A stretch of 64,000 bases of DNA, taken from positions 1,054,001-1,118,000 of the forward strand of contig NZ_CP133188.1 in assembly GCF_030913635.1 (NCBI RefSeq). The letters run 5' to 3'. Positions 3,107-36,157 of this stretch are shown here, one piece after another. This stretch comes from Sedimentibacter sp. MB35-C1 (lineage in GTDB: Bacteria > Bacillota > Clostridia > Tissierellales > Sedimentibacteraceae). The translations under genes and the position numbers were made by a program. The notes beneath the pieces were generated by a model. It had not been told where the DNA came from, ran no database searches, and saw only the letters and a list, made by a program, of their open reading frames with translations. Each line of letters begins with the position of its first letter. Positions within the stretch are counted from its first letter, which is position 1.

Positions 3107-3712
3107 ATGAATAAATTTGGAACAGCGATGATTTTGGCAGGAGGTAAAAGCTCAAGAATGGGCTTTGACAAACAATTCATAAAAATCAATGAAAAAAGAA
3201 TTGTAAATATAATAGCGGCAAAATTAGAAAAAGAATTTGACGAAATAATTATAATAACCAATAAGGCTGATGAATATAAAGAATCAAAATATAGGATTGC
3301 CGAGGATGTTATAAAAGGTAAAGGACCATTATCAGGAATACATGCCGGACTTAGTATTTGCACGTCAAAATATGCATTTGTGGTGGCTTGTGACATGCCC
3401 AACATTAACATTGATTATATTAAGTATATGAAGAGTATAATAGAAAGCAATGATGTGCAGGGATGTGTAACTAAGTATGAAAACTGGATAGAACCCTTCA
3501 GCGGGTTTTATTCAAAGGATATTTTAGTAAATATAGAGAAACAGCTGAAATCAAATATGAGATCTATTAATAAACTGCTTAAGGAACTGGACATATATTA
3601 TATAAATGAAAAGAAAGCTAGGGAGTTTAGCCCTACGTGGGATATGTTTTTAAATTTAAATACTAAAGATGACTTAAACAATTATTTAGAGGTTACTGAC
3701 AGTATAGATTAA
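3107..3712 (+). CDS. mobA: Molybdenum cofactor guanylyltransferase MobA
   Basis: MobA transfers GMP from GTP to molybdopterin to make the MGD cofactor that DMSO-reductase-family enzymes need. The 201-residue protein opens with the nucleotidyltransferase signature LAGGKSSRMGFDKQ (about residues 10-23) and has the GKGPLSGIHAGL and VVACDMPN motifs of the family. The ATG has an AAAGGTGAT ribosome binding site. It is followed by a strong terminator and then by the molybdoenzyme operon it presumably serves; mobB and moeA lie further on. Confidence 0.93.
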   Translation: MNKFGTAMILAGGKSSRMGFDKQFIKINEKRIVNIIAAKLEKEFDEIIIITNKADEYKESKYRIAEDVIKGKGPLSGIHAGLSICTSKYAFVVACDMPNINIDYIKYMKSIIESNDVQGCVTKYENWIEPFSGFYSKDILVNIEKQLKSNMRSINKLLKELDIYYINEKKAREFSPTWDMFLNLNTKDDLNNYLEVTDSID

Positions 3713-3920: not shown

Positions 3921-3937
3921 TTGGCATAAATATTGCA
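3921..3937 (+). promoter_or_regulatory. Sigma-54 (-24/-12) promoter of the molybdoenzyme operon
   Basis: TTGGCATAAATATTGCA contains the invariant GG (3923-3924) and GC (3935-3936) exactly 10 bp apart and matches TGGCAC-N5-TTGCA at nearly every position. Transcription would start near 3948, before the TTG start at 3986. It is paired with a sigma-54 activator gene in the same cluster and with upstream palindromes. Confidence 0.8.
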
Positions 3938-3985: not shown

Positions 3986-6900
3986 TTGAAAAGACGTTCA
4001 TTTTTAAAACTTTTGGGAGGAGTCGGAGCACTAAGCTTTACCGGCTTAACCATAGGTTGTGACAAAAAGGATTCTGTTGATGCAGACGCTCCGGATCAAT
4101 TCCCAAAGCTTTCCAAACTTTCGGGACAAAAGCCAGAAGCGGTTGTGGATGTCAAAACAGGAAAAGTACAAGTTGATGGGTCAATATTGATGAGGCACAG
4201 CGCCTGCTTGGGATGCTACAGCTCATGTGGTAACCGTGTTAAAATTGACAAAAATACTGGAAAAATATTAAGGGTGTATGGAAATCCATATAATCCAAAC
4301 AATGCGGAACCGCATCTTTCTTTTGAAGAACCGCTGGCAGAATCATATCTTGCATTTAGCGGGTATAAAGATAAAGGAAGCATAAACAGAGGAACTTTAT
4401 GCGGCAGAGGAAATGCTACATTGGAAAGTCATTACGATCCTATGAGAACATTGGTTCCTTTAAAAAGAACAAGTGGGCGAGGAGAAGGAAAATGGATGCC
4501 TATAACCTGGGAAGAAGCTGTTGAAGAAACAGTGGAAGGCGGAGAGCTGTTTAAAGACGCCGGTGAAAGTACTTATGTGGAAGGATTTAGGCAAGTAAGG
4601 GATTTAGATACTCTTATTGATGAAAAAGCTCCTGAGCTCGGATCAAAAGCCAATCAATTGGTTTTCTTCGGAGGAAGAGGAGATGGAAGAACATCTTTTG
4701 GAAACAGGTTTATAAACGCTTTTGGAACATTAAACAGTTATAGTCACGGCTATTCCTGAGGCGGCTCAAAAACACCCGTGGGACGGGTTACAGCCGGTGG
4801 TCAAAATATGAGACCTGATATAAACAATGCAGAGTACATATTGTATGAAGGAGCTTTTCCTGGGCACAGCGGAAAGCCTATGCAAACTATAGCAAGACAA
4901 ATAAAATTTGGGGTAAATGAAGGCAGCCTGAAATATTCTGTAGTGGACCCTGTGCTTGTTGGAGGCGCAGTAACTCCATTATATAAAAAAGGTGAATGGG
5001 TTCCCATAAAGCCTGCCACTGACAATGCATTCGGGATGGCACTTATAAGATGGATTATTGAAAATGAAAGATATAATAAGAAATTTTTGTGTTCTCCAAA
5101 TTACGATGCTGCAGTATCCAAAGGGTTTAACAGTTGGACCAATGCTGCGCACCTAGTTATAGATGATCCTGAGCATCCTAATTACAGAAAAATGCTTAGG
5201 GCAGAAGATTTAGGTATGGAGACAGGCAAAGATGAAAAGGACATATTTATTGTAATCGATAATTTAACAAAACAACATGACAGGTTTGATAAAGTAAGCG
5301 AAGCAGATTTATTTTTTGAGGGAAAGGTTGCTGCTGCAGACGGAAAAGAAATACAAGTTAAAACTTCATTTTTACATTTGAAGGATAGCGCCTTTTCACA
5401 TACTATAAAAGAATATTCAAACGCATGCGGAGTGCCTGAGGAAAAAATAAAAGAGATTGCAAATGAGTTTACTTCTCACGGAACAAAGGTAGCCATGGAT
5501 GGTATGGGAAGCACTGCTACAGCTAACGGTGCAGATATAACTATGATTAGTTATATTTTAATGTCTATGGCTGGAAGCCTAAATAAAAAGGGCGGAGCTA
5601 TTATTAGAAGAAATTCGTATAAATCGGCAAGTGACGGACCTAGATATAGAGTAAGTGTCATACCTGATGCACCAAAAAAATCAGGAATAAGAATAAGTCG
5701 TACTGGGGTAAGCTACGAAAGTACTTCTGAATATAAAAATAAGGTTGCAAATGGTGAGAATCCATATCCATCCAAGATGCCTTGGCATCCTGTGGGAAGC
5801 GCGTCTGATAATCAGGCTGTTTTTTCTATTGTTAATAAATACCCTTATCAGGCAAAAATAGTATTTAACTGGATGGCAAATCCTTTGTTGGCTGTTCCGG
5901 CAGCGGCAAAAAAAGAAGTGTTGGAAGCTCTTAAAAGCACTGATAACGTACCGCTGTTTATTTCATGCGATCCTTATATGGGTGAAATGACTGCTCTTGC
6001 AGATTATATAATACCGGATACAACTCCTTATGAGAGCTGGGGACTTGCAAATATCGAAGGGAACTTTTCAGGAAAGGGTCTTACATTGAGATGGCCTATA
6101 GTTGAGCCTGCAACACCTAAGCTTCCTGACGGGAGACATACTTCTTTTGAGACATTTATAATAGATGTTGCAAAGAAAATAAATCTTCCGGGATTTGGAG
6201 ACAGGGCAATGTTTGACGCAAATGATAATTTACTTCCTCTTAATAGCAGAGAAGATTATTTTGTAAGAGGTATTGCCAATATGGCATATGACGGAGAACC
6301 GGTATCAGATATTTCAAAAGATGAAATGGACATGCAAGATTTAGAAAATGCAATGAAAGACTGGAAAAATTCCGTTACGGAGGAAGAATGGCCTAAAGTG
6401 TTAAAGGTAATTTCAAGAGGTGGCAGGTTTGAGGATCACGGTGCCGGATTTGACGGAGATAATCATAAATATCCATATAAAGGTGCTGTAAACTTCTATG
6501 TTGAAAGCTTTGCTAATGGTATAAACTCAATGACAGGCGAGCACTATAGAGGAGTTGCCGCATGGAATCCTGAATCATTCTCCGATGGAACGTTAATTGC
6601 CGACACGTTCCCTGAATCACAGTGGCCGTTTAAAGCTGCGAATTACAAGCCTAAATTCAGAAGTATAAGCATGCTTTCTAACAGTTCCATTATGAGGGAT
6701 TTGAGCAAACATAACTATGTGGAGCTGAACTCTGAGGATGCAGCTAGTCTTGGAATTAGAACTATGGATCTTGTAAAGGTAGTACCTGCAACTGGAGGCG
6801 ATTTTACAGGATATGCTTTGGTCAGAGAAGGAATAGCAAAAGGAACTATAGGAATAGCATACGGATATGGACATTGGGAATACGGAAGCAAGGAATACAG

Positions 6901-7060
6901 CATAGACGGAAAGCCTAATGGAGGGAACAAGGATTTAGGTGCGGGAGTTCATTTGATGAATATATTAGACCCTAAAGTTAATGGATTGTTCGGAATTTCA
7001 GAATCATCCACAGGCGGTCCTGGAAGAAATGGTGGCGCATACAGAATAGAGAAGGTATAA
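3986..7060 (+). CDS. Selenocysteine-containing tetrathionate-reductase-like molybdopterin oxidoreductase, catalytic subunit
   Basis: One frame runs through the TGA at 4757-4759, giving 1024 residues with selenocysteine at 258. The TTG start at 3986 is chosen because an AGAGGTG site precedes it and the product opens with a twin-arginine signal, KRRSFLK (residues 2-8), and a lipobox-like LTIGC; a GTG at 3917 lies before the sigma-54 -24 box. [4Fe-4S] ligands are C74, C77, C81 and C139. The stretches RGEGKW.PITWEE..EE.VEGG and KANQLV resemble TtrA, and HGYS-U-GG falls where TtrA has a catalytic Cys. The enzyme should carry bis-MGD and act outside the membrane. The substrate is unproven: tetrathionate or another sulfur, selenium or arsenic oxyanion. 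Confidence 0.85.
4760..4798 (+). promoter_or_regulatory. Candidate bacterial SECIS element
   Basis: Immediately after the in-frame UGA, CGGCT (4762-4766) can pair with AGCCG (4792-4796), and ACCCG (4774-4778) with CGGGT (4784-4788). The apical loop is UGGGA, separated from the outer stem by an internal loop. Position, two-part stem and G-containing apical loop fit bacterial SECIS hairpins that recruit SelB. The fold was drawn by eye. Confidence 0.65.
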
Positions 7061-7063
7061 AAT

Positions 7064-7756
7064 ATGAACAAATCAATAGCAGAAGAGACTATTTTTGTAG
7101 TAAGTAAGAGACTTGAAATATATGAATTCTTGTCATTTGCCTTTTTAAATACTCCATCTGAAGATATTTTAAATTCCTTGAGAAAAAATGCTGAATTTTT
7201 TAAGGAGCTTTGTCCAGTAAATACAGATTTTTTATATGAAAAAAGTACGGATGATTTCGTTCAGGAATATTATGACAGGTTTTTTGTGCCTACTTCGAAA
7301 TTGTTTGTTCCTTCTCATGAATCTTCCATAAGGAACAGAAAAATAAAAAAGGGTAAAACAATTTACGGTAAAATTGACAGCAATGAAACATTTCATGTAA
7401 AAGCATGTTATGAAATGGTTGATTTCAAAATTCGTGAGCTAAATGGATTCAGTCCTCTTAAGGATAACCACTATCCGGATCATGTAGCTTTTGAACTTGC
7501 ATTTATGGCATACATGGTGAAACTTGAACTGTCAGCATTAAAATGCGGTGATGAAGAAAATTCTGTGAAATGGAAAAAGCTCCAGAATGATTTTCTGGAC
7601 GAGCACTTGAGTAAGTGGATTGGTGATTATGCAGAATTAACCGAGGAAAAAGGAAATGGCATGTATTCTTATTTAAGCTGTATTTCCGCCGCTTGGACGG
7701 TTATGGATTTAGAGCATTTGAATGAAGAATTCATTAAAGACAGAGAGGTGATATAG
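7064..7756 (+). CDS. TorD/DmsD-family molybdoenzyme maturation chaperone
   Basis: This 230-residue cytoplasmic, mostly helical protein carries family hallmarks: YDRFFVPTSKLFVPSHESS (about residues 70-88) and the DHVAFELAFMAYM helix near 140-152. TorD-type chaperones bind the Tat signal of their partner and hold the apoenzyme until Mo cofactor is inserted. It lies 3 bp after the selenoenzyme gene and 1 bp before the Fe-S subunit gene, so that enzyme is the obvious client. Confidence 0.85.
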   Translation: MNKSIAEETIFVVSKRLEIYEFLSFAFLNTPSEDILNSLRKNAEFFKELCPVNTDFLYEKSTDDFVQEYYDRFFVPTSKLFVPSHESSIRNRKIKKGKTIYGKIDSNETFHVKACYEMVDFKIRELNGFSPLKDNHYPDHVAFELAFMAYMVKLELSALKCGDEENSVKWKKLQNDFLDEHLSKWIGDYAELTEEKGNGMYSYLSCISAAWTVMDLEHLNEEFIKDREVI

Positions 7757-7757
7757 T

Positions 7758-8351
7758 ATGAAAAAGTATGGAATGATTATAGATTTAAAGCGCTGTGTGG
7801 GATGCCATGCGTGTACCATAAGCTGCAAAATGGAAAATGAGATTCCGGAAGGCTGCTTTAACACTTGGGTTGAAGAATGGGATACTGGCAAATATCCGAA
7901 TGTATCAAGAGTAAAATTACCTAAGATGTGTAATCACTGCGTGGATGCGCCGTGTATCGAAGCTTGTCCCGTAGATGCAACATTTGCCGTTGAAGGCGGT
8001 ATAGTAGTTGTAGATGAAGAGAAATGCATCGGTTGCGGAGCGTGTGTTTCTGCATGTCCTTATGATGCAAGATATATGAACAGTGCAACAAACAAAGCAG
8101 GAAAATGTACATTTTGCATACAAAGGGCAGAAGCCGGAATGATGCCGGCATGTGTAAGCACGTGCATATCCCATGCAAGATTCTTCGGAGATCTCAATGA
8201 TCCAGACTCAGAGGTAAGCAAGCTTATGGCTGAAAACAAAACAGAAGGCTTAAAGGAAGAACTGGGTCTTGAGCTTAATGTTAAATATATCGGACTAAAG
8301 GATGCGTTGAAGAACGGAGAGCCGGAGGAACGTTACAGAGGCGGAAAATAA
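7758..8351 (+). CDS. Four-cluster Fe-S electron-transfer subunit (DmsB/TtrB-like)
   Basis: This 197-residue ferredoxin-like protein has four cysteine groups typical of DmsB, PhsB and TtrB: CVGCHACTISC, CNHCVDAPCIEACP, CIGCGACVSACP, and CTFCIQRAEAGMMPACVSTC. It should pass electrons to the molybdoenzyme through [4Fe-4S] clusters. It lacks its own Tat signal, so export bound to the catalytic subunit is likely. No membrane-anchor gene of the DmsC or TtrC type follows, which leaves the quinol or ferredoxin link open. Confidence 0.9.
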   Translation: MKKYGMIIDLKRCVGCHACTISCKMENEIPEGCFNTWVEEWDTGKYPNVSRVKLPKMCNHCVDAPCIEACPVDATFAVEGGIVVVDEEKCIGCGACVSACPYDARYMNSATNKAGKCTFCIQRAEAGMMPACVSTCISHARFFGDLNDPDSEVSKLMAENKTEGLKEELGLELNVKYIGLKDALKNGEPEERYRGGK

Positions 8352-8378: not shown

Positions 8379-8555
8379 ATGTTTAAAATGGGTGCAACAG
8401 AATTAATTTTAATACTTGGCATTGCGTTGATAGTATTTGGACCAGGAAAGCTGCCGGAAATTGGAAAAGCATTGGGAAAATCTATAACTGAATTTAAAAC
8501 TCATGCCAATAAATCCTATGATGCTACGATAGAAAAATCAGAGGACAAGGAATAA
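8379..8555 (+). CDS. tatA: Twin-arginine translocase subunit TatA
   Basis: This 58-residue protein has a short N-terminal membrane helix (ATELILILGIALIVFGPGKLP) with the Phe-Gly-Pro hinge, followed by an amphipathic helix (EIGKALGKSITEFK) and a charged tail, the TatA layout. An AAGGAG ribosome binding site precedes the ATG at 8379. Location in the operon of a Tat-dependent enzyme fits a dedicated translocase component. No tatC is present in the window. Confidence 0.9.
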   Translation: MFKMGATELILILGIALIVFGPGKLPEIGKALGKSITEFKTHANKSYDATIEKSEDKE

Positions 8556-8597: not shown

Positions 8598-8648
8598 ATT
8601 AAATTACTTTAGACAGTGAGAAGCTAGTAATTATATGCGGAGATGTTT

Positions 8649-9791
8649 ATGTTTAGAGCTGATAAAATTATAGAAAAAGCTACGGCAAGACTTGACGCCG
8701 TTTCTGTGAATGCGGAAAGATGCTCAAGATTGCGTTCGTCTTTATCAAAATGCACAAAGTGTACGGATATCTGCCCTGAGATGGGGATAGATATAAATAA
8801 GTCAGGTATTCAATTAAATTACAGTTGTATACAGTGTGGATTATGCGCAGCAGTTTGTCCGACAGGAGCATTGTCTATTCAGGAGCCGACAGAACTGAGC
8901 TTGTATGAGTATGCTTCTGCCTTGGGAAAAGACGGCAAAGATTGTGTAATAAGTTGCAAGCGTAATGATACTGTATCAAATGATATTTTTAAGGTTCCAT
9001 GCTTGGGAAGTTTAACTATAGAGCTTCTATTTAGCTTGGATTTGCTACCAAATAAGGTGTACATGGTGTTTTGCGAAAATGAATGCGAAAAGTGTGCGGT
9101 AAATCATGGCATCAGGCACTATTACAGCAGAATTAAAGAAGTAGATAAAATAAAAAGTAATCTTGGCTTGTGTGGAGGAGCTTTAACTGATGCGGAACAT
9201 CCACCTGAGCTTAAATATAAAGATATTCATTCGGATAAAATGAATGAAGAAAGAAGAGAATTTATCTTTTCTGCATTTAGATTATTTGAAGAAACCATAA
9301 AGAACATTCCTGATATGGCGGTGGAATATTTACTTGGCGAGGAAGAAGAAAAAGGCTCTGTTTCCTCCGCTGATAAAATTGAAAAATATCCCATGTTTGT
9401 AAAATCATTTGAAAGAATTGAGAAATGTAATATAATTAATGGTGAAGTTAATGAATATTTCAAGCCATTTTTGGCTGGAGAATGCAGATTCTGCAAGGCG
9501 TGTTCCATATTATGTCCAACGGGAGCATTGAAGTGTACAAAAACACATGATACTATAGAGATAGTATTGTCTCCGAATGCTTGTTGTGGATGCAATTTAT
9601 GTGTTGAGGTGTGCTACCACAATGCATTGGATTTGGAAACAAAGAAAGCGGAAGATTTTATGGGTGATTCTCCATATACCATTGCAAGAGGAGTTGTTCA
9701 AAAATGTATTTTTTGTGGAAAAGAAATTTATTCTGGGAAGAAAGAAGAAATTTGTCAGTCATGCTTAAAGATGGGCAAGAAAATCAGGTGA
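8649..9791 (+). CDS. Multi-cluster 4Fe-4S protein of the molybdoenzyme cluster
   Basis: This protein of about 380 residues has ferredoxin-type motifs near the N-terminus (CTKCTDICP, then CIQCGLCAAVCPTGAL) and in the last third (CRFCKACSILCPTGAL, CCGCNLCVEVC). It ends with a zinc-ribbon-like CIFCGKE...CQSC pair. The middle contains a further CENECEKC motif. The start at 8649 fits the GGAG at 8639-8642 better than the ATG at 8643. There is no signal peptide or membrane helix. It could donate electrons to the Fe-S subunit or act as a redox sensor. I do not recognise a named family. Confidence 0.75.
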   Translation: MFRADKIIEKATARLDAVSVNAERCSRLRSSLSKCTKCTDICPEMGIDINKSGIQLNYSCIQCGLCAAVCPTGALSIQEPTELSLYEYASALGKDGKDCVISCKRNDTVSNDIFKVPCLGSLTIELLFSLDLLPNKVYMVFCENECEKCAVNHGIRHYYSRIKEVDKIKSNLGLCGGALTDAEHPPELKYKDIHSDKMNEERREFIFSAFRLFEETIKNIPDMAVEYLLGEEEEKGSVSSADKIEKYPMFVKSFERIEKCNIINGEVNEYFKPFLAGECRFCKACSILCPTGALKCTKTHDTIEIVLSPNACCGCNLCVEVCYHNALDLETKKAEDFMGDSPYTIARGVVQKCIFCGKEIYSGKKEEICQSCLKMGKKIR

Positions 9792-9796
9792 TATAA

Positions 9797-10807
9797 ATGA
9801 AAAAGATTATTATTTTTTTCGCCTGCATCATTGGATTAGCCTGTTTTATTTATTGCGGCAAGAGTAACGGTTTTGGAGACACTGGCGTAGAAAGCAGGCA
9901 TAAAATAGGCGTTCTGTCGGCATCTGACATAAGGTTGCTTAAAGTAAATGCTATGATTACAGAACTTGATAATTACGGATATAGTAAAGATACGCTGGAT
10001 ATTGTAGTAAAAAACGCCGAAGGCGATAAAAGCAGATTGAATGAGTTAGCACGAGAGCTGGTAGATGAAGATGTTGATATTATAGTAACAACAGGTGTTT
10101 TTGAAACTTCTTCGGCGCAAAAATTTGCGGAGAGCAAAAATATCCCGATAATTTTTATCGGAGTAAGCTGTACGGTGGAACTAGGTCTTATAAATGACAA
10201 AATAACTCCGGGATGTAACATAACCGGTGTCGATAGCGACTATGTTCGCCTGACAGGGAAAAGACTGGAATTTTTAAAAAGAATTGTACCTGATACAAAA
10301 CGGGTTCTTATATTGTATAATCCGGACGCCATACCTTTCGGGCCAAGTTCAAAGCTATTTCATGAAGCTGCTGATAAGCTTGACATACAGCTTGATATGA
10401 TATCGGCTAAAAACAGGGACGAAATGGTTGAGGCTATAATAGAAAACAGCCAAAAGTGTGACGGAGTAATACTTATGTGCAGCTTGCTGTACGAATCTAC
10501 AATTAAGGATATTGCTGATACTTCGTTAAAATATAAAATACCTGTTATGGGAGTCGACAATGTTCAGGTGGAAAAGGGGATATTAGCTTTTTATGGAAGT
10601 ACAAATTATAATGAAGGAATTCAGGCTGCAAGGCTGGTTGCAAATGTATTTGACGGTCATGATATAAAAATAATTCCTATTGAAAAACCGGAGCACTTGG
10701 AGTTTCACATAAATGTTGATACGGCAGAAGCCCTCGGAATAGATATTGATTACTCAGGAATGACGTTTGTTGATAAGTTTGTACGAAATTCAGATGATAG
10801 CAGATAG
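9797..10807 (+). CDS. Solute-binding protein, ABC_sub_bind family, with no transporter partner
   Basis: This 336-residue protein starts with a hydrophobic export signal containing candidate lipidation cysteines (GLACFIYC). Two Rossmann-like lobes typical of the family follow: KIGVLSAS, DVDIIVTTGVFETSSAQKF, KRVLILYNPDA and IPVMGVDN. No ABC permease or ATPase is nearby. It is followed at once by a sensor kinase and response regulator, so the likely role is to bind a ligand outside the cell and present it to the kinase. Confidence 0.78.
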   Translation: MKKIIIFFACIIGLACFIYCGKSNGFGDTGVESRHKIGVLSASDIRLLKVNAMITELDNYGYSKDTLDIVVKNAEGDKSRLNELARELVDEDVDIIVTTGVFETSSAQKFAESKNIPIIFIGVSCTVELGLINDKITPGCNITGVDSDYVRLTGKRLEFLKRIVPDTKRVLILYNPDAIPFGPSSKLFHEAADKLDIQLDMISAKNRDEMVEAIIENSQKCDGVILMCSLLYESTIKDIADTSLKYKIPVMGVDNVQVEKGILAFYGSTNYNEGIQAARLVANVFDGHDIKIIPIEKPEHLEFHINVDTAEALGIDIDYSGMTFVDKFVRNSDDSR

Positions 10808-10815
10808 TGGTGATT

Positions 10816-12657
10816 ATGAATAAAAAAATTTTAGTGAGTATAAAGTTAAAGCTTGTGTTAATGATTGTGTCGGTATCTGTAATTCCTTTAGTTTTTTTAT
10901 CATACATCAATATTAAGACTCTGAAAAATGAGGTAAAGGTATCTATACACAAGGGACACGAGCTGGCGGCATCAAGAATATCTCAGACTATTGTGGAGAT
11001 GGTGAAGACCACACAAGAATCGATGCAAGCGGTGGCTTTGACTAATCCTGAATTGTTCAAGCCTGACAACGGGGTAAACAGAGAAGATATTATATATAGA
11101 ATGTTTAAGAGATATGAACATTTAGAGGAAATGTCCATGATTTCTAAAAATGGACTGGAACTTGCAAAAATTTCAAAAAGGCATGTTATTTCTCTAGATG
11201 AGTTAAATGATATTTCTAATGAGGACAAGTTTAAAGTGCTGGAAAAAGGCAGTTTGTACATAGGCGAGCCAAAAATGGATGCGGACAAACAAGTGGTTTT
11301 TGAACTTGGCGTACCCATAGGCGGAGGAGACGAGTATTTGTCAGGTGCTATTACAGCTAAAATAAGCCTTCGCCAGATAATGAATAAAATTAATTCCACA
11401 AAAGGTGAAGAAGGAAGCTATATATTTCTAATAGATGAAAACGGAGCTTTAATAGGGCACTCAGATTATAACCAGGTAATGAGAGGTCAGGATGTTACAA
11501 AAAGCGAAGGGGTAAAGAAACTTCTTGAAAATAAAAAAGAATTTAAAAGTGGCATTAAAGATATTAACTTTGACAGCAAAGTATATGAATCTTATTCAGG
11601 CCAAAAGGTACTGGGGGTATATGGGTTAATCCCCATAGTTAATTGGGGAATTGTTGTGGAACATCCGTTGGATAAAGTTTATATGACAATAAGGCAAATG
11701 ATTGCCAAGATATTGGTAACATTGTTGTTGACGTTGATTTTTACCGGAATGGCAGTGGTGTGTTTAATTAATATTTTTATGAAATCCATAAATGAAATTG
11801 AAAAAGGAGTTAATTCAGTTAAAAGTGGAAATTTTGACTATAAAATTCCAAAGCAAAGCAATGATGAGATAGGTGCAATAATTGATGCATTTAACAATAT
11901 GACGGATGAGATAAAAAGAAAGAAAGAAAATGAAAAGCTTATTATTTCAGCTGAAAAAAGGGCGGCGATAGGTACTTTAGCTGCCGGTGTGGCCCATGAG
12001 ATAAATAATCCCATGAACAACCTTGGATTTTACACTTCAGATTTGCTTGAAAGACTTGAAACGGAAGATATCAATGAATTATATGAAGGTAAAACTATAC
12101 AGAACTATCTTGAAATAATGAAAGAACAAATTGAAAGGTGTTCTTCAATTACTCATAATTTGCTGAAAATTTCAAGGGAATCTGCTGTCAATATCAAACC
12201 AGTAAATATATATGCAACAATTAAGGATATATTGAAACTCATGGAGCACAGAATTAAGAAACAAAACATATCTGTGAAGATTGACTTGCATGCACCAAGG
12301 CCTGTTGTTATGTCAGATGAGTCGCAAATACAGCAAATGCTTTTGAACATAATTACAAATGCATTGGATGCAATGGAGAAAAAAGGAACTCTAAGAATCA
12401 GCATAGAAAATTTTCATAATGATGATACCTTGCTTATAAAAGTAAGGGATACGGGATATGGAATCAAGGATGAAGATAAAGATAAAATATTTGATCCTTT
12501 CTATACAACTAAGCCTGTAGGAAAAGGAACAGGATTGGGACTTTCAATAAGCCAGGTAATTATTGAAAGAATGAGGGGCACTATAGAAATACACAGCGAA
12601 GAAAATATCGGTACGGTAATATATATAAAGCTTCCTGTTGCAAAAGAGGTGGATTAA
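10816..12657 (+). CDS. Membrane sensor histidine kinase (Cache-type sensor, HAMP, HisKA, HATPase)
   Basis: This protein of about 613 residues has an N-terminal membrane helix, an extracellular Cache-like sensor of roughly 260 residues, a second membrane helix near 295-320, a HAMP linker, and a kinase core. The core has phosphoacceptor His in AAGVAHEINNPMNNL and an ATPase with DTGYGIKDEDKDKIFDPFYTTK and GTGLGLSIS. The ATG at 10816 is preferred over the GTG at 10807, which overlaps the previous stop. It is the NtrB-like partner of the regulator one base downstream. Confidence 0.93.
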   Translation: MNKKILVSIKLKLVLMIVSVSVIPLVFLSYINIKTLKNEVKVSIHKGHELAASRISQTIVEMVKTTQESMQAVALTNPELFKPDNGVNREDIIYRMFKRYEHLEEMSMISKNGLELAKISKRHVISLDELNDISNEDKFKVLEKGSLYIGEPKMDADKQVVFELGVPIGGGDEYLSGAITAKISLRQIMNKINSTKGEEGSYIFLIDENGALIGHSDYNQVMRGQDVTKSEGVKKLLENKKEFKSGIKDINFDSKVYESYSGQKVLGVYGLIPIVNWGIVVEHPLDKVYMTIRQMIAKILVTLLLTLIFTGMAVVCLINIFMKSINEIEKGVNSVKSGNFDYKIPKQSNDEIGAIIDAFNNMTDEIKRKKENEKLIISAEKRAAIGTLAAGVAHEINNPMNNLGFYTSDLLERLETEDINELYEGKTIQNYLEIMKEQIERCSSITHNLLKISRESAVNIKPVNIYATIKDILKLMEHRIKKQNISVKIDLHAPRPVVMSDESQIQQMLLNIITNALDAMEKKGTLRISIENFHNDDTLLIKVRDTGYGIKDEDKDKIFDPFYTTKPVGKGTGLGLSISQVIIERMRGTIEIHSEENIGTVIYIKLPVAKEVD

Positions 12658-12658
12658 A

Positions 12659-13984
12659 ATGAACAGCTTCAGATTGCTGATAGTAGATGATGAGGAGAAA
12701 TTCGTAGAGCTGTTGAGAGACAGATTGAGAAGGAAGGGCTTGTATGTTCAGGCAGCAACATCCGGAATAGATGCGGTAGAACTGATACAACAGGAAGAAT
12801 TTGATGTTGGGCTGTTTGATATTATGATGGATAAAATGGACGGACTTAGGCTTCTGGAAGAAGCTAAAAGAATTCAACCTGACATGGAAGTAATTATGCT
12901 TACGGGCTATGGTACTGTGGAGACCGCTATAAGAGCTATGAAGAACGGAGCTTATGATTATCTTTCAAAACCGATAAACCCCACCAAACTTGATTTGGTA
13001 TTGGAAAGAGCTTCGGAAAAAAAGAAGCTCAAGGGATACAATAATAATCTCGTCGAAAACATAAAAATTATTAATAACAAAAGAGAGATAATAGGAGAAT
13101 CTAGGTTGATAGCAAACCTTAGATACATGATAGATAAAGTTGCTGATAGCAATCTTCCGGTGCTTATATTGGGTGAAAGTGGCACTGGCAAAGATTTGGT
13201 GGCAAATGAATTGCACTGTAAAAGCATGAGAAAGGACAAGCCGTTTATTCCAATAAACGCTGGGGCTATCCCCAATGATCTTCTGGAGTCTGAATTGTTC
13301 GGACATGTTAAGGGTGCTTTCACAGGAGCACACACAAATAAAAAAGGTCTTGTTGAAATAGCCGACGAAGGAACTCTTTTTTTGGACGAAATAGGTGATA
13401 TGGAACTTGGCCTGCAGAAAAAGCTTCTAAGATTTTTGGATACAGGTGAATTCAGACCTGTGGGGGGCACAATGGTTAAAAGAACCTCTGTAAGGGTTGT
13501 GACGGCTACAAATAAAAATTTGGAGGAAGCTATTGAAAAGGGCAAGTTTAGACAAGACTTGTTATACAGGTTAAGTGTTATTACCATACATGTTCCACCA
13601 TTAAGGGAAAGAGGTGGAGATGTATTACTTTTAGCGGAGTATTATTTGAAAAAATCACCGGATTTAAAAGAACTGACAGAAGAAGCAAAAGATTTTCTGC
13701 TTAGCTATAGCTTCCCTGGAAATGTAAGAGAACTGATTAATTTTATCGACAGAGGGATCTTGCTTTCAAAGGATAATAAAATACATTCTGGTGACTTATA
13801 TACGAAAGCGCTGATGCCAGAGCAGCAATCCGGCGATAAAATGACTTTGGGTGATATAGAAAAACAGCATATTATAGAGGTGCTGAATTCAACAAACTGG
13901 GATAAGCCAAAGGCAGCTAAAATATTAAAAATTGGACTTAGAACATTGTACAGAAAAATTGATAAGTATGAAATACATAGGTGA
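12659..13984 (+). CDS. Sigma-54-dependent response regulator (NtrC/AtoC type)
   Basis: This 441-residue enhancer-binding protein has a receiver domain (D10, D11, phospho-acceptor D54, K104), an AAA+ domain with Walker A GESGTGKD (172-179), the sigma-54 contact loop GAFTGA (219-224) and Walker B FLDEIGD (241-247), and a C-terminal Fis-type helix-turn-helix. The ATG at 12659, one base after the kinase stop, has an AGAGGTGGA site. It almost certainly activates the sigma-54 promoter at 3921, probably from the TGTC-N5-GACA sites; the binding itself is inference. Confidence 0.95.
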   Translation: MNSFRLLIVDDEEKFVELLRDRLRRKGLYVQAATSGIDAVELIQQEEFDVGLFDIMMDKMDGLRLLEEAKRIQPDMEVIMLTGYGTVETAIRAMKNGAYDYLSKPINPTKLDLVLERASEKKKLKGYNNNLVENIKIINNKREIIGESRLIANLRYMIDKVADSNLPVLILGESGTGKDLVANELHCKSMRKDKPFIPINAGAIPNDLLESELFGHVKGAFTGAHTNKKGLVEIADEGTLFLDEIGDMELGLQKKLLRFLDTGEFRPVGGTMVKRTSVRVVTATNKNLEEAIEKGKFRQDLLYRLSVITIHVPPLRERGGDVLLLAEYYLKKSPDLKELTEEAKDFLLSYSFPGNVRELINFIDRGILLSKDNKIHSGDLYTKALMPEQQSGDKMTLGDIEKQHIIEVLNSTNWDKPKAAKILKIGLRTLYRKIDKYEIHR

Positions 13985-14008
13985 CGGCAGTCATAAATGG
14001 AGGTTTAT

Positions 14009-15244
14009 ATGCAGCAGAATATATCTGTGGAACAAGCAAAATCAATTATTTTAGACGGTAGGGAAAAAACGGACATTATTGAAATCCCTATTTTGGAATC
14101 ATTGGGGCATGTGCTGGCAAATGATGTGAAATCACACATGGATATGCCGCCTTTTGACAGGTCTCCTTTAGATGGATACGCATTGATGTCTGAAGATACA
14201 AAAGATGCAAGTATAGAAAGGCCGGTGGTATTAGATGTAATAGATTATGTTCCGGCAGGATATGTAAGCTCAAAGAAGGTAAAAAATGGTCAGGCAATAA
14301 GGATTATGACCGGGGCAAAAATTCCAGAAGGAGCAGATATAGTAATAAAATACGAAGATACAGAATTTACGAAAGAAGATGTGAAAATATTTAGTTATAC
14401 AAAATCCGGAGCCAATATTGTAAGAAGAGGGGAAGATATAAAGTGCGGAGAAACTGTATTGGCAAAAGGAAAGGTTATTCAACCGGCAGATATAGGGATA
14501 TTAGCTACGCTGGGAATGAGCAAAGTGCAGGTGTACGCAAAATTAAAAATTGGGATTCTTGCGACTGGGGATGAACTTGTTGAAGTTGATAAAAAACTTG
14601 ATGAAGGGAAAATAAGGAACAGCAATTCATATACTCTTGCGGCTCAAATAATTAGAAGCGGTGGAGATCCTGAAATATTAGGAATATGCAAGGATGATAT
14701 CGGCGAAATATCTGAAAAATTAAAAAGTGCTTTAGAAAAATATGACATGATTATAACAACAGGTGGAGTATCTGTTGGAGATGCAGATTTGGTAAAAGAA
14801 GCTTTTAAGAAGATAGGGGCAGAAATATTATTTTGGAAAGTGCAAGTAAAACCAGGTTCACCTATTACGGTAGCCAAGTACAATAATAAATTTCTCTTTG
14901 GTTTGTCGGGAAATCCGGCTGCTGCCAGCATAACATTTGAACAGTTTGTCCGACCAGCGGTTCTAAGCTTAATGGGAAGAGAAAATGTGGATCTTATTAA
15001 AGTGAAGTCTGTTTTAAAGAGTAATTTTAATAAAATTAGAAATCACAGCCGGTATGTAAGGGCAGTTACTTACTATAAAGACGGAGGATTTTTTACATTG
15101 TTGCCTGATAAGCACAGCTCCGGAGTTTTATCATCATTGTCTGGTATAAATTCTTTGCTTTTAATAAAGGCAGGGGAAGGCCCTTACAAATCGGGAGACA
15201 TAATAGAGGTAGAACTGCTAAGTAAGCCAGAGGTAGTAGTATGA
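14009..15244 (+). CDS. moeA: Molybdopterin molybdotransferase MoeA
   Basis: This protein of about 411 residues inserts molybdate into adenylated molybdopterin to form Mo cofactor. It shows MPPFDRSPLDGYAL near the N-terminus, VPAGY, IMTGAKIPEGADIVIKYED, the RGEDI motif, GILATGDELVE, the TTGGVSVGD motif, and GLSGNPAAA. The start at 14009 has GGAGG at 13999-14003; the upstream ATG at 13997 overlaps that site. It follows the response regulator closely, and its last bases overlap mobB. Confidence 0.95.
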   Translation: MQQNISVEQAKSIILDGREKTDIIEIPILESLGHVLANDVKSHMDMPPFDRSPLDGYALMSEDTKDASIERPVVLDVIDYVPAGYVSSKKVKNGQAIRIMTGAKIPEGADIVIKYEDTEFTKEDVKIFSYTKSGANIVRRGEDIKCGETVLAKGKVIQPADIGILATLGMSKVQVYAKLKIGILATGDELVEVDKKLDEGKIRNSNSYTLAAQIIRSGGDPEILGICKDDIGEISEKLKSALEKYDMIITTGGVSVGDADLVKEAFKKIGAEILFWKVQVKPGSPITVAKYNNKFLFGLSGNPAAASITFEQFVRPAVLSLMGRENVDLIKVKSVLKSNFNKIRNHSRYVRAVTYYKDGGFFTLLPDKHSSGVLSSLSGINSLLLIKAGEGPYKSGDIIEVELLSKPEVVV

Positions 15245-15732
15245 TACCTGTAATTTCTGTTGTGGGAGCTGAATCAAATGTGGGAAAAACAACGGTTATT
15301 TGCAAGATAATAAGGGAGCTTAAATTAAGAAATTATAAAGTCGCAACTATAAAGCATCACAAAGGCGATTTTGATATAGACTATCCTGAAAAGGATACAT
15401 GGAAACATTATGATTCAGGCGCTGATACGGTTATTATTTCTTCGCCTGTAAAATTAGCACGAATAGAGCGCAGGTCTGAAGAATATAAGCTGGATGAAAT
15501 TATAAGCGGAATAAGTAACGTTGATATTATTATAACGGAAGGATATAAAACCTGTCATAAGCATAAAATTGAAGTAGCGAGAAAGTGCTTTTCTCAGAAG
15601 ATAATTTCAAAAGAAACAGAACTGTTTGCAGTTGTAACGGATTTTTATGTTAAAAGTAACATTCCAAGGTTTTCACACGATGATATAAAGGAACTGGTAG
15701 ATTTAATTGAAGAAAAATTTTTAAATGAATAA
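15241..15732 (+). CDS. mobB: Molybdopterin-guanine dinucleotide biosynthesis adaptor MobB
   Basis: This 163-residue P-loop GTPase carries GAESNVGKTT near the N-terminus, then KVATIKHHKGDFDIDYPEKDTWKH and the IITEGYK motif typical of MobB. It assists MobA in delivering the guanine dinucleotide form of the cofactor. The ATG overlaps the moeA stop. It closes the Mo operon, followed by a terminator. Confidence 0.93.
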   Translation: MIPVISVVGAESNVGKTTVICKIIRELKLRNYKVATIKHHKGDFDIDYPEKDTWKHYDSGADTVIISSPVKLARIERRSEEYKLDEIISGISNVDIIITEGYKTCHKHKIEVARKCFSQKIISKETELFAVVTDFYVKSNIPRFSHDDIKELVDLIEEKFLNE

Positions 15733-15781: not shown

Positions 15782-15943
15782 ATGAATATTTGCGCAAAGA
15801 GCAACTGCACTTTAAGTAAATAATCCATAAAGAATATTTGGCTTCGCATAAAAAATATGATAAATTTCTTTAAATAGTATAAAATTATGTTATAATATAA
15901 TCTTAATTAGACATACATTATACATTAAGGAAAGGAACTTAAA

Positions 15944-16981
15944 TTGAACACAGTAAGTTATAAAGATGCAAAAAATAAATATTTTTTTATTGATGTAAGA
16001 AGTCCAGCAGAATATAAAGCCGATACCATAACAGGTTCTGTAAACATACCTTTGCTGAACGATGAAGAAAGAAAAGAGGTTGGTACCACATATGTGCAGG
16101 TAGGAAAAACGGAAGCCAAAAGGCTTGGCGTAAAACTTATATCATCGAGACTGCCTGACATATTTGAGCAGGTGCTGGAATTAAAGTTTAAGCATAATAA
16201 TTTAGCGGCATTCTGTGCAAGGGGAGGCTATAGGAGCTCATTTATATGTGCTTCATTCAGTTCAGTAGGAATTCCGCTGTTTCAGTTGGAAGGAGGATAT
16301 AAAAGCTACCGCAAAGAGGTGATAAGTTCTATTCCAAAACTGAATGAGAAGACAACATACATTGTATTAAATGGAAATACCGGAGTGGGTAAAACCGATA
16401 TACTGTACGGATTAAAAAAGCTTGGATGCTCCATACTTGACTTGGAAGGAGCTGCAAACCACAGAGGCTCTATTTTTGGAAGCATAGGTATAGGTGAATG
16501 CAATACGCAAAAGAAATTTGAAACAAATATTTACGACCAGTTGGTTGAAGCTGAAGGCAAATATGTATTTGTTGAAGCTGAAAGCCAGAAGATAGGAAAA
16601 GTTACACTACCTAAATGCATATCAGAAAAAATGAAACAAGGCATACAAGTGTTTGTTGATGCAGACATGGAACACAGAATAAAAAGCCTTAAAAAAGATT
16701 ACACTTTAGATGATTCGTGGATTAGTGAATCTATTAAGGCTATGGATTATCTAAAAAGATATATAGCAAGAGAAAAGATTGAAATGCTTAAGCAGGAAGT
16801 AATAAAGGGTAACTTTGACAATGTAGCAAGAGAACTTATGGAAAAATATTACGACCCAATGTACAATTTTAAATCAGGCAAATTAAATTATGCTGCGTCA
16901 TTTCACAACGAAGCAGGCACGGACAATGTGTCAGACAAAATGTTTATGTGGTACAGGGGATTACAAATGTCAACGGTTTAG
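15944..16981 (+). CDS. mnmH: tRNA 2-selenouridine synthase MnmH (SelU)
   Basis: This 345-residue enzyme uses selenophosphate to convert 2-thiouridine to 2-selenouridine at the tRNA wobble position. It has an N-terminal rhodanese domain with active-site C91 in FCARGGYRS and a C-terminal P-loop domain with GNTGVGKT at 144-151. The start is TTG with an AAGGAAAGGAA site. It shows that the cell makes selenophosphate, in line with the selenoprotein 9 kb upstream. It appears to be transcribed separately from mobB. Confidence 0.94.
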   Translation: MNTVSYKDAKNKYFFIDVRSPAEYKADTITGSVNIPLLNDEERKEVGTTYVQVGKTEAKRLGVKLISSRLPDIFEQVLELKFKHNNLAAFCARGGYRSSFICASFSSVGIPLFQLEGGYKSYRKEVISSIPKLNEKTTYIVLNGNTGVGKTDILYGLKKLGCSILDLEGAANHRGSIFGSIGIGECNTQKKFETNIYDQLVEAEGKYVFVEAESQKIGKVTLPKCISEKMKQGIQVFVDADMEHRIKSLKKDYTLDDSWISESIKAMDYLKRYIAREKIEMLKQEVIKGNFDNVARELMEKYYDPMYNFKSGKLNYAASFHNEAGTDNVSDKMFMWYRGLQMSTV

Positions 16982-16993
16982 CAATTATAAGGA

Positions 16994-17533
16994 TTATTCT
17001 TTCAGAAATTCTTCCCTCTTTATTGAGTAGAGATTCATAGTTCTATTATCAGGCCAATCAACCTTGTTTTTATACCTTAGCCCGATATAATTCAGAATGT
17101 GTTCAGACGCGGTGTTCAATGAATCAACCGCCGCGGATATTTCATCAAAATCTAAATTATTAAATCCATATGAAAGTATTTTTTTAGTGGCTTCTTTAGC
17201 ATAGCCTTTTTTCCAATAAGGCTTTGCGAATCCGAAGACCATCTCAATACCTCTGATCGCATCACTATGTTTAAAACCGCAGTAGCCAATATATTTATTT
17301 GTGTTTTTTTCTATTACAGAAAATACATAATTGCTATTAATTCCGAAAGTATTGATTTTTTTAAAATAACTGCTCAATTCATTTTCATATGACTGCTTTG
17401 TTATACCTCCCGTATATTTCATAACATCTCTGTTGCATTTCATCTTTATAACTTCAGGGAAATCATCCATACTGGGATTTTTTATTATAAGTCTTTTAGT
17501 TTCTATAAATATATTTTGAATTGGATCTATCAT
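16994..17533 (-). CDS. GNAT acetyltransferase, RimJ/RimL type
   Basis: This 179-residue protein begins with the ETKRLIIKNPSMDD pattern of RimJ/RimL-like N-acetyltransferases. It contains IGYCGFKHSD, a GFAKPYWKKGYAKEA acetyl-CoA-binding segment, and a C-terminal SEHILNYIGLRY. The substrate cannot be predicted. It is convergent with mnmH, 12 bp away, and I see no strong terminator between them. Confidence 0.88.
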   Translation of the reverse strand: MIDPIQNIFIETKRLIIKNPSMDDFPEVIKMKCNRDVMKYTGGITKQSYENELSSYFKKINTFGINSNYVFSVIEKNTNKYIGYCGFKHSDAIRGIEMVFGFAKPYWKKGYAKEATKKILSYGFNNLDFDEISAAVDSLNTASEHILNYIGLRYKNKVDWPDNRTMNLYSIKREEFLKE

Positions 17534-17665
17534 TTTTAAACCTCAAAAACAAGTTTGCTATATTATAAACAAATATAGCAGGTATTGCAATATTAAATTA
17601 AGAATTAAATTAATATAAAATTATAGTTATCTATTATTATCCGTTAATGGATATATTTGAAAATA

Positions 17666-17694
17666 TTGTATAAATGGACTATTTGTGTTATAAT
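17666..17694 (+). promoter_or_regulatory. Sigma-A-type promoter of tdk
   Basis: TTGTAT (17666-17671) and TATAAT (17689-17694) are 17 bp apart. The leader of about 85 nt that follows holds two adjacent hairpins (17724-17746 and 17746-17765) before the GGGAGG ribosome binding site. Confidence 0.6.
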
Positions 17695-17786
17695 GTCTTG
17701 TTTTGATTGATGGAATTTATTATCAGATGACTGAGAAGTTCATCTGTTCTAAGGAAATTCAGAACTAGGAAGATAGGGAGGACAAT

Positions 17787-18440
17787 ATGGCACAGCTTTA
17801 CTATAGATATAGTACCATGGGTGCGGGAAAAAGCATAGAGGTTCAAAAAGTTGCATTCAATTATGAAGAAAAGGGACAAAATCCGTTGATATTTACATCT
17901 GGTTTGGATGACAGATATGCGGAATCAGGAATTGTTGCTTCGCGCATAGGGTTGCAACGAAAAGCGATATCGGTAAATGATGAAATGAATATTTTTGATA
18001 TTGTAAAGAAATACAATGACCTGTTCAGAGTGGATGCTGTTATAATTGACGAATGTCAATTTTTAAAGAAACATCATATAATGGAACTTACTGACGTTGT
18101 CGACGATTTAAATATACCGGTCATGTGTTATGGCTTGAAATCAGATTTTAAAAATGAATTGTTTGAAGGATCATACTGGCTTTTGGCAATGTCTGATAAA
18201 ATAGAAGAAATTAAAACGGTATGTTGGTGCGGCAAAAAGGCTATCGCCAATGCGCGCCTCATTGACGGAAAGGTTGTTTATGAGGGAGAACAAATTTTTG
18301 TCGGTGGAAATGAAAGCTACACAGCCTTGTGCAGAAAGCATTATAAAAAAGGGCTGGTTATGCCGTATCATGAAGAATCCAAAGACTTAATAACAAGATA
18401 TGAGAGGTTGTCTAAAGAAGAAAAAGACAGCAATGAATAA
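17787..18440 (+). CDS. tdk: Thymidine kinase, type II
   Basis: This 217-residue enzyme phosphorylates thymidine for the salvage pathway. It has a P-loop STMGAGKS (about residues 9-16), the Walker B-like IIDECQFL, the MCYGLKSDF region, and zinc-binding cysteines (CWCGKKA and a later LCRKH). The lasso-like GNESYTALCRKHY segment at the C-terminus is also typical. A good GGGAGGACA site precedes the ATG. Confidence 0.94.
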   Translation: MAQLYYRYSTMGAGKSIEVQKVAFNYEEKGQNPLIFTSGLDDRYAESGIVASRIGLQRKAISVNDEMNIFDIVKKYNDLFRVDAVIIDECQFLKKHHIMELTDVVDDLNIPVMCYGLKSDFKNELFEGSYWLLAMSDKIEEIKTVCWCGKKAIANARLIDGKVVYEGEQIFVGGNESYTALCRKHYKKGLVMPYHEESKDLITRYERLSKEEKDSNE

Positions 18441-18515
18441 TATATTTTAACATTATGGAATATTATGAATAAAAAGGAATCTCCTGTTTATAATGTAATA
18501 TAGGAGGTTTTTACT

Positions 18516-18788
18516 ATGAGCAGTATTTCTAAAAATGATAAAAAAATAAAATTAATGAATATCAAAAATATTTTTTACAACTCTAAAGTAAGAAGCAGCA
18601 ATGATAAAAATGACTTATATGCAAATTTAGAAAGTGCAAGGAAAGAGTGGGAAGAAGCAAAAAATATTTTTGAAAACGTATCAGAGCCTGATTTAGTTGA
18701 TTATGCTATTTATAATGTAGAAGCAGCTGAAAAGAAATATATCTATTTGTTGAGACAGATAAAAAACGAAGAATCAGCTGCTAATTAA
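18516..18788 (+). CDS. DUF2508 (YaaL-like) small protein
   Basis: This 90-residue acidic helical protein has the family pattern: ARKEWEEAKNIFENV, then EPDLVDYAIYNVEAAEKKYIYLLRQI. YaaL-like proteins often sit beside recR or sigma-K processing genes in Firmicutes; here the gene stands alone behind tdk. The function is unknown. A strong TAGGAGG site precedes the ATG. Confidence 0.75.
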   Translation: MSSISKNDKKIKLMNIKNIFYNSKVRSSNDKNDLYANLESARKEWEEAKNIFENVSEPDLVDYAIYNVEAAEKKYIYLLRQIKNEESAAN

Positions 18789-18803
18789 ACTTAAAGGTGT
18801 AAA

Positions 18804-18837
18804 AAGGTGTAAACTTTTTGTTTGCGCCGTTATTTTT
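18804..18837 (+). terminator. Terminator after the DUF2508 gene
   Basis: GGTGTAAAC (18806-18814) pairs with GTTTGCGCC (18820-18828) through nine pairs including G-T pairs, with a T-rich tail after it. Confidence 0.6.
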
Positions 18838-18982
18838 GCTAATTTAAAGGATGAAGTTATTTTGTTGGAGTATTGATATAGCTTAATTTGGCAATTGTTT
18901 ACATAAAAAAATATTACCATTTGCAAATGCACCGGGCTCATGTTAAACTAAACGAAAAAAGAATTAGAAAGTATGTGATTAA

Positions 18983-22140: not shown

Positions 22141-22406
22141 CTGTGCTACATGGGGAGGTAGCGGTGCCCTGTACTTGCAATCCGCTGTAGCAAGGTGGAA
22201 TTCCCTCTCTAGGCTTATATTGTGAGGGCTGACTTTTTTAAGTGGCGTTGATAACCCGGTCTCGTGCAATGAGACCCCGTGAACCCTGTCAGGTCCGGAA
22301 GGAAGCAGCAGTAAGCGGATCGTCTCGTGTGACGCGAGGGCGCCGGGTTAGAGTTAACTGTAAGAGTACGCTTGTGATATAATGTCGAAAGAGGGTGCAC
22401 AGCACT
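22141..22406 (+). ncRNA. ffs: Signal recognition particle RNA, long Gram-positive type (scRNA)
   Basis: The RNA of about 265 nt has the Alu-domain start (GGGGAGGTAGCGGTGCC). Helix 8 carries the conserved Ffh-binding core GTCAGGTCCGGAAGGAAGCA at about 22288-22307. Its 5' GTGCT can pair with the 3' AGCAC at 22401-22405. It resembles Clostridium SRP RNAs and works with Ffh in membrane targeting. The ends are estimated from pairing and from the promoter. Confidence 0.95.
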
Positions 22407-35931: not shown

Positions 35932-35999
35932 ATGGTTAAAAGTAACAAATAAAGGTTTATCAGTAAGAATAAAAATACGCAAGTATAATTGTATGAAAA

Positions 36000-36157
36000 G
36001 CTTTGGAGAGACCCCGAAGGGGGAGCCGAAGAAGCAAGTCGCACGTGTCGAGTGCGATGAAACTTTCAGGCAAAAGGATGAAGCTTGGACAATTCTCTGA
36101 ATAACAAAGATTAAGACAGAGGTAATGACATTGGTTATTATCGCTGTCTTTTATTTT
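36000..36157 (+). promoter_or_regulatory. Glycine riboswitch (single aptamer) with terminator platform
   Basis: Conserved glycine-aptamer elements occur in order: GGAGAG (36005-36010), AGCCGAAGAAGCAAG (around 36024-36038), TCAGGCAAAAGGA (36066-36078) and TTCTCTGAA (36093-36101), which closes P1. A terminator follows: AAGACAG (36113-36119) pairs with CTGTCTT (36144-36150), with an inner GGTAAT/ATTATC stem and a T-rich tail. Glycine binding should prevent termination and switch on glycine cleavage. I see only one full aptamer, not the common tandem. Confidence 0.9.

Follow-up and report, generated by a model that had tools for sequence, protein, structure and literature searches.

A predicted selenocysteine-containing clade of TtrA-like molybdoenzymes in Sedimentibacter and relatives from two phyla

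The window analysed in this study is a stretch of 64,000 nucleotides from Sedimentibacter sp. MB35-C1 (contig NZ_CP133188.1, positions 1,054,001 to 1,118,000), and coordinates given without a locus name refer to it. The central gene (3986-7060, + strand) was assigned by Pfam and NCBIfam profiles as the catalytic subunit, 1024 aa in length, of a TtrA-like molybdoenzyme that is predicted to contain selenocysteine (Sec). The gene starts at a TTG codon preceded by a 6-nt ribosome-site match, GAGGTG, and forms one frame of 1024 codons with a single internal TGA, codon 258 (4757-4759, +), thereby bearing out the original prediction that the same frame continues on both sides of the TGA to make one protein of 1024 residues. 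The TGA is read here as selenocysteine, residue 258, a predicted Mo ligand, and TGA occupies the same column in 14 genes. Upstream lie a gene for a MobA-like molybdenum cofactor guanylyltransferase (3107-3712, +; best match NF001457, 135.1 bits, below the cut-off of 164) and a motif-scan match to a sigma-54-type -24/-12 promoter, TGGCATAAATATTGCA (3922-3937, +). Downstream, and all on the + strand, follow genes for a TorD/NarJ-type maturation chaperone (7064-7756; PF02613 over cut-off, TorD-type NCBIfam models all below), a TtrB-like ferredoxin subunit (7758-8351; NF011569, 226.8 bits, below the cut-off of 416), the export component TatA (8379-8555; over cut-off), a ferredoxin-like Fe-S protein of 382 aa (8643-9791), an ABC-type substrate-binding protein that is a probable sensor partner (9797-10807; PF04392), a dCache sensor histidine kinase (10807-12657) and a sigma-54-dependent response regulator (12638-13984), the last two by both NCBIfam and Pfam. 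The row continues with a MoeA-type molybdenum insertion protein (13997-15244; three MoeA domains over cut-off, the MoeA equivalog below) and the molybdopterin guanine dinucleotide adaptor MobB (15241-15732; TIGR00176 over cut-off).

The catalytic subunit contains the domains of the DMSO reductase family, with PF00384, PF01568 and PF04879 all over cut-off. Its best NCBIfam match was TtrA (NF011567) at 731 bits, under the equivalog cut-off of 1750, and it is thus nearer to TtrA than to ArrA (69 bits); the substrate is not readable from the family because the TtrA score falls so far under the cut-off. A twin-arginine signal followed by a lipobox-like Cys is predicted at the N-terminus, and C74, C77, C81 and C139 are candidate [4Fe-4S] cluster ligands. 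The RR pair and the four cluster Cys were invariant across 15 compared sequences. Among the members of the TtrA/SrdA/archaeal arsenate reductase branch, TtrA resembles the Sec enzyme in length, Tat-like N-terminus, Fe-S Cys set, TtrB-like partner and ligand position, with 34% identity for Citrobacter TtrA and 38% for an Azospirillum homologue. The two differ in that Sec replaces Cys, the TtrA cut-off is not reached, TtrC was not seen beside the window gene, and the substrate-binding protein, dCache kinase and sigma-54 regulator stand in place of TtrSR. A structure prediction from four sequences was of low confidence (mean pLDDT 31.4, pTM 0.23), and no conclusion was based on it.

A Sec formate dehydrogenase, or another known Sec molybdoenzyme, could conceivably have been misread as TtrA-like; FdhA and FwdB belong to the same family with Sec at the Mo/W site, and the available part of PMC13188914 calls FdhA the most widespread selenoprotein of bacteria. 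We consider such a misreading extremely improbable, given the 731 bits of the TtrA model against 78 for Fdh-alpha, the motif U-G-G in 14 of 14 Sec genes where FdhA and FwdB have UHxP according to the same available text, and a different branch with different partners, namely the TtrB-like and TorD-like neighbours.

The UGA of the TtrA-like gene falls in the context HGYS-U-GG, and Citrobacter TtrA shows AHGAY-C-G with Cys in the same column, in agreement with the earlier claim that the UGA stands at the Mo-ligating Cys of TtrA. H254, four residues before U, and G259, directly after it, were invariant in the 15 compared sequences. The U column also aligns with Cys in the solved structures of Thermus PsrA (2vpw; residue 173, counted along the printed alignment) and ArrA (6cz7), and these Cys are the Mo ligands of the two enzymes. 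In an alignment of 94 rows the column held 12 Sec, 82 Cys and zero other residues. Cys was thereby found in 82 of 82 non-Sec homologues, one of them an annotated TtrA, the residue that the original prediction had proposed to look for in homologues, and close homologues with a residue other than Cys or Sec, named beforehand as evidence against selenocysteine, numbered zero among these rows. The count refers to the set after removal of the weak distant matches L026-L040, L074 and L077 and of matches without an issued locus; L147 and L148, outside the alignment, both also have U.

Thirteen further genes with TGA at the same codon, 46-95% identical to the window protein, bring the total to 14 genes in 13 genomes of two phyla after duplicate removal (L019 and L070 equal L022, L021 and L072 equal L025, and L071 equals L020). 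The closest named relative was a Sedimentibacter metagenome-assembled genome with 95% protein identity (locus L019). In the searched genome sets, which overlap, Sec-type relatives occurred in 5 of 100 close relatives (protein query), 6 of 398 genomes of the phylum and 6 of 249 genomes of the order with 7 genes, the own genome included in all three, and in 2 of 277 in the class of Desulfuromusa and 2 of 45 in one family. In L147, one of these genes, the frame is broken close to the start, and the first residues are odd. Genome G956 carries two Sec TtrA-like genes on one contig (L149:5502-8585 and 15838-18888), L148 being a paralogue located close to L147. Their identities to the window protein are 46% (L148) and 78%, each copy is accompanied by a TorD-like and a TtrB-like gene, and the two are arranged around one kinase/regulator and Mo-cofactor cluster; the sensor kinase (L149:10138-12004) is in three reading-frame pieces, either real or an assembly error, and a gene pair resembling a UGA-split formate dehydrogenase was noticed by eye near the Sec pair (L150). 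A TGA-bearing candidate outside the Sec clade (G810:C7:2052-3920) was rejected because, when its pieces were compared separately, it proved to be a paralogue with a broken frame that has Cys in the U column and the TGA at the end of the first frame. In G810, a frame-broken TtrA-like Cys paralogue (L143:1455-4575) immediately precedes an intact Cys member. The query patterns were without match in the viral collection, and 130 plasmid records with a match were all less than 60% identical, the two inspected ones both having Cys.

A SECIS-like hairpin supported by folding and covariation (4774-4788, +; stem ACCCGT/ACGGGT) follows the UGA. Positions 4774-4779 pair with 4783-4788 around the loop GGG at 4780-4782, and the spacing from UGA to loop is 20 nt. 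Counted from the T of the UGA, the loop begins at nt 24 in the 14 Sec genes, except for 23 in L042/L043 and 26 in L045, and loop position 1 or 2 is a G in all of them. The uninterrupted stem measures 6-8 bp in 13 of the 14 genes and 4 bp in L020; in L045 the hairpin is shifted by 2 nt, and another fold wins in its 48-nt minimum-energy structure. The original prediction described a two-part hairpin right after the UGA. Its upper hairpin was confirmed, and its outer part was absent from the consensus fold of 12 sequences, an outer stem being predicted for the window and L022 and, in other registers, for L042-L044. RNAalifold recovered the same stem from the 12 sequences unprompted, with one more outer pair. 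By chance, uninterrupted stems of at least 6 bp in the tested distance range were found behind 4.1% of 1425 TGA triplets on the + strand of the window and behind 5.1% of 946 on the - strand, as against 13 of 14 Sec sites.

In a 40-column alignment of the 14 genes, L147 and L148 included as in the hairpin geometry, five of the six pairs changed on both sides in some sequence, and 94% of the 84 pair cells were standard, compared with 26-44% for slid pairings. None of 500 shuffles reached the observed value on four of five covariation measures, and the fifth, on further pair types, was not above the shuffles (5 versus a mean of 5.6). When compared with synonymous recodings, a test run without L147 and L148, the mean z was -3.8 in 12 Sec genes and -0.03 in 82 Cys genes, and for stability the hairpin took rank 5 or better out of 500 in 9 of 12 Sec genes versus 2 of 82 Cys genes; weaker Sec cases were L042 (rank 36), L043 (13) and L045 (11 of 500). 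These counts are not independent because the Sec rows are related. The bacterial SECIS model in the available part of PMC13188914 specifies a loop of 3-9 nt, a stem of 4-16 bp, G in the first two loop positions, a spacing from the UGA of 16-37 nt and a minimum free energy (MFE) of -7.5 or lower. This geometry was found in 14 of 14 Sec genes by applying these published values directly rather than the accompanying program. The 48-nt MFE ranged from -8.4 to -20.6 in the 12 folded Sec genes, with the conserved hairpin present in 11 of them (L045 folding otherwise), and the hairpins of L147 and L148 alone gave -8.0 and -9.7. Rfam at gathering thresholds matched nothing in the TGA region. By its sequence and predicted fold, the hairpin fits the published bacterial SECIS model.

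Should the TGA be a true stop, the locus would represent a pseudogene, a sequencing error or a split gene giving two polypeptides, and we regard this as very improbable. A TGC or TGT miscalled as TGA, which the original prediction had named as a refuting outcome, is most unlikely because the same TGA is present in 13 further genes. The distribution of the TGA over 14 genes and two phyla and the covarying hairpin behind it also argue against a stop in general. Selection on the two sides of the TGA is similar and purifying, which again argues against termination: dN/dS against L022 was 0.068 before and 0.061 after the TGA, and against L023, where dS was saturated, 0.059 and 0.066; comparisons with L024, L041 and L042, wholly or partly saturated, were excluded. 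The earlier statement that the downstream half has no ribosome binding site was nearly right, although a 4-nt match, GGTG, stops 8 nt short of the in-frame ATG at 4808, which gives the split gene some footing; the match at the true start is 6 nt long. That ATG is missing from 9 of the 14 Sec genes, and the first in-frame start codon past the TGA lies in them anywhere between 5 and 41 codons on. The best argument for a split gene, which we nevertheless consider weak, is a conserved in-frame ATG located 39-43 codons past the TGA in 14 of 14 Sec genes, the Met of which occurs in 12 of 12 Sec rows versus 15 of 82 Cys rows, and it leaves some room for restart. In the window this Met is encoded at 4880-4882, 41 codons past the Sec codon, and is without a good ribosome site. 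Against its use as a start, the ribosome-site match is at most 3 nt throughout and the ATG is already some 41 codons into the homologous region. A break at the UGA would presumably divide one cofactor-binding fold.

The genome itself holds the machinery for selenocysteine incorporation, since selA, selB, selC and selD, the genes on which the original prediction was to be checked, were all found, with selD, selA and selB adjacent and tRNA-Sec about 5.4 kb on. The selD gene (L018:8380-9348) carries an in-frame TGA of its own, and a plain ORF caller listed it short because this TGA precedes the listed start; Sec is usual at this position of SelD. Another user of the SelD product is encoded in the window, the tRNA 2-selenouridine synthase MnmH (15944-16981, +; NCBIfam over cut-off), which uses selenophosphate. 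In the other Sec genomes (12 in all, with G956 outside the test), selB was over cut-off in 11 of 11 tested, a result that is consistent and is weak evidence alone because selB was also found in 140 of 199 sampled genomes of the phylum. Insertion of Trp or Cys at the UGA by a near-cognate tRNA, with selenium playing no part, is chemically possible, and Cys stands at the site in 82 other homologues. It is nevertheless a highly improbable account of genes in which the UGA is marked by a stable, covarying hairpin at SECIS distance, in a genome with the full Sec gene set, and where a Cys codon would suffice for Cys. Selenocysteine is by far the best reading of the TGA at 4757-4759 on the available sequence evidence. 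We hold with high confidence that the gene encodes a Tat-exported bis-pyranopterin enzyme of TtrA type, with Mo (or W), whose metal-ligating Cys has given way to selenocysteine, and the earlier reading of a selenoprotein branch of the TtrA/ArrA-type reductases is thereby supported by the Cys column, the covarying hairpin, the sel genes and the 13 further TGA genes.

In a tree of 13 full-length Sec and 23 chosen Cys rows, from which, as from the other tree, the fragment L025 was left out, the Sec sequences formed one clade with support of 100/100 and recovery in each of the 200 bootstrap trees. A single Sec clade also appeared in a quick tree of 49 rows, 11 of them Sec; roots were midpoint only. 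The neighbour of the Sec clade was a Cys clade with all rows from family f31, a family searched more deeply than the others. A single gain of Sec from Cys would be the simplest reading of the rows in the tree. Desulfuromusa kysingii (strain DSM 7343, locus L020) and a classmate group within the Sec clade, which points to a transfer of the Sec gene between phyla. Members of the Cys sister clade (L108, L126, L046, L109-L112) are 39-44% identical to the Sec enzyme, and three inspected loci (L142-L144) resemble the Sec loci in their TorD-like and TtrB-like genes and in the type of substrate-binding protein, kinase and sigma-54 regulator. They differ in having Cys at the site and an NrfD-like gene in all three loci, and in the sister clade the hairpin region does not exceed synonymous recodings in stability (ranks 103-500 of 500).

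Every Sec neighbourhood compared has a TorD-like and a TtrB-like gene after the Sec gene (L019, L020, L134-L141, L080 and both L149 copies; L136 and L080 are short contigs). L019, L134 and L150 have MobA-like relatives close to the Sec gene, MobA/MoeA/MobB genes accompany it in the window, L134, L135 and G956, and modABC-like genes were recognised by eye in L134 and G956. The membrane partner varies, being of NrfD type in L138 and L139 only, and a cytochrome b resembling the formate dehydrogenase gamma subunit in L140 and, on inspection by eye, in L141. No membrane partner was recognised in L019, L020, L134, L135, L137 and L149, either by eye or by BLAST with two NrfD/TtrC queries, and no NrfD/TtrC-type gene was seen beside the window gene among ten window proteins searched with NCBIfam. 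The 382-aa protein, with relatives in L019, L134 and L149 and more distant ones in L135 and L136, has two ferredoxin-like regions and goes with the Sec enzyme in Sedimentibacter-type loci; it may serve as the electron entry in place of a membrane subunit. The genome has another Pfam molybdopterin match, L145, which by eye looked like an NADH-linked Fe-S flavoprotein, and the Sec enzyme is not claimed as the only Mo enzyme of the genome.

The promoter match upstream of the Sec gene has the form TGGCAT-N5-TTGCA. The motif was found once in the window, against 0.29 expected, and at least once in 26 of 100 shuffles. Among the Sec loci scanned, a set without G956 and in which the contig of L080 ends close by, a match at 10 of the 11 scored sigma-54 positions was located 64-69 nt upstream in 7 of 7 loci with a sigma-54 regulator in the stretch fetched and in 0 of 4 where the regulator was not seen. 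The operon is probably under sigma-54 control.

From the neighbour genes, the cofactor genes and the promoter match, we infer an exported, Mo-loaded and inducible reductase. In the mechanism proposed, SelB with Sec-tRNA would bind the hairpin and decode the UGA, the TorD-like protein would guide cofactor loading by MoeA, MobA and MobB, and the folded enzyme would leave by Tat. Electrons would reach it through the TtrB-like ferredoxin for reduction of an acceptor, probably a compound of sulfur, selenium, arsenic or antimony, and the adjoining sensor kinase and sigma-54 regulator would probably switch the operon on from its promoter. An oxyanion reductase activity is suggested by the family, the Tat signal and the neighbours. 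The same selenoprotein could instead work as an oxidase or hydratase, which we consider rather unlikely. The superfamily holds the arsenite oxidase ArxA (PMC7331816 and PMC10100899, in their available parts) and, with a weaker structure match, acetylene hydratase, and a quinol-linked membrane subunit was not seen next to the window gene; on the other side, the TtrB-like, NrfD-like and sensor genes of the Cys sister clade (L142-L144), and the ttrB, ttrC and ttrRS genes beside Citrobacter TtrA, are arranged like those of respiratory reductases. The reductase reading, taken in its widest form, proposes a new Sec family of respiratory reductases in the S/Se/As branch that gained Sec once from Cys, spread across phyla and employs Mo-Se chemistry on a substrate, possibly an oxyanion of selenium or antimony, for which Cys enzymes are poorly suited; we give this full scenario about an even chance.

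As far as the literature searched reaches, the Sec TtrA-type clade is an apparently undescribed variant. Table 1 of PMC13188914 (2026), in the form available, contains 119 prokaryotic selenoprotein families or subfamilies, and its DMSO-reductase-family catalytic subunits are FdhA and FwdB only. A TtrA-type molybdoenzyme is absent from that table, the sole "tetrathionate" entry being a tetrathionate-reductase-family octaheme cytochrome selenoprotein (TIGR04315), which shares the name alone and is a c-type cytochrome by its listed name. In the accessible portions of PMC7331816 and PMC10100899, TtrA, SrdA and archaeal arsenate reductase are given Cys where the ligand is shown, and Sec was sought in the former with FwdB, FdhG and FdhH queries. 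The available text of PMC3306737 reports two TtrA genes in Desulfitobacterium hafniense with Sec unmentioned for them, and a Sec TtrA-type family was not found in the available parts of PMC9312934, PMC1088965 and PMC12013277. More broadly, full-text searches of open literature, with the matches judged mostly by titles and the starts of abstracts, yielded no description of a Sec TtrA-type enzyme. The accessible text of PMC7331816/PMC10100899 proposes Sec as the ancestral ligand, and the Sec clade bears on this proposal because the Sec genes sit here inside a set of Cys enzymes, which gives Sec the look of a gain. A Sec clade in the TtrA/SrdA branch would bring Mo-Se chemistry into a lineage of respiratory reductases, and the Sec and Cys sister clades would form a natural pair for asking about the role of selenium at the Mo site. 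Any gene caller that knows UGA solely as a stop will split such Sec genes in two. Elsewhere in the window, a large bacterial SRP RNA (22141-22402) and a glycine riboswitch (35993-36091), the latter just upstream of what appears by eye to be a glycine cleavage operon, are both ordinary.
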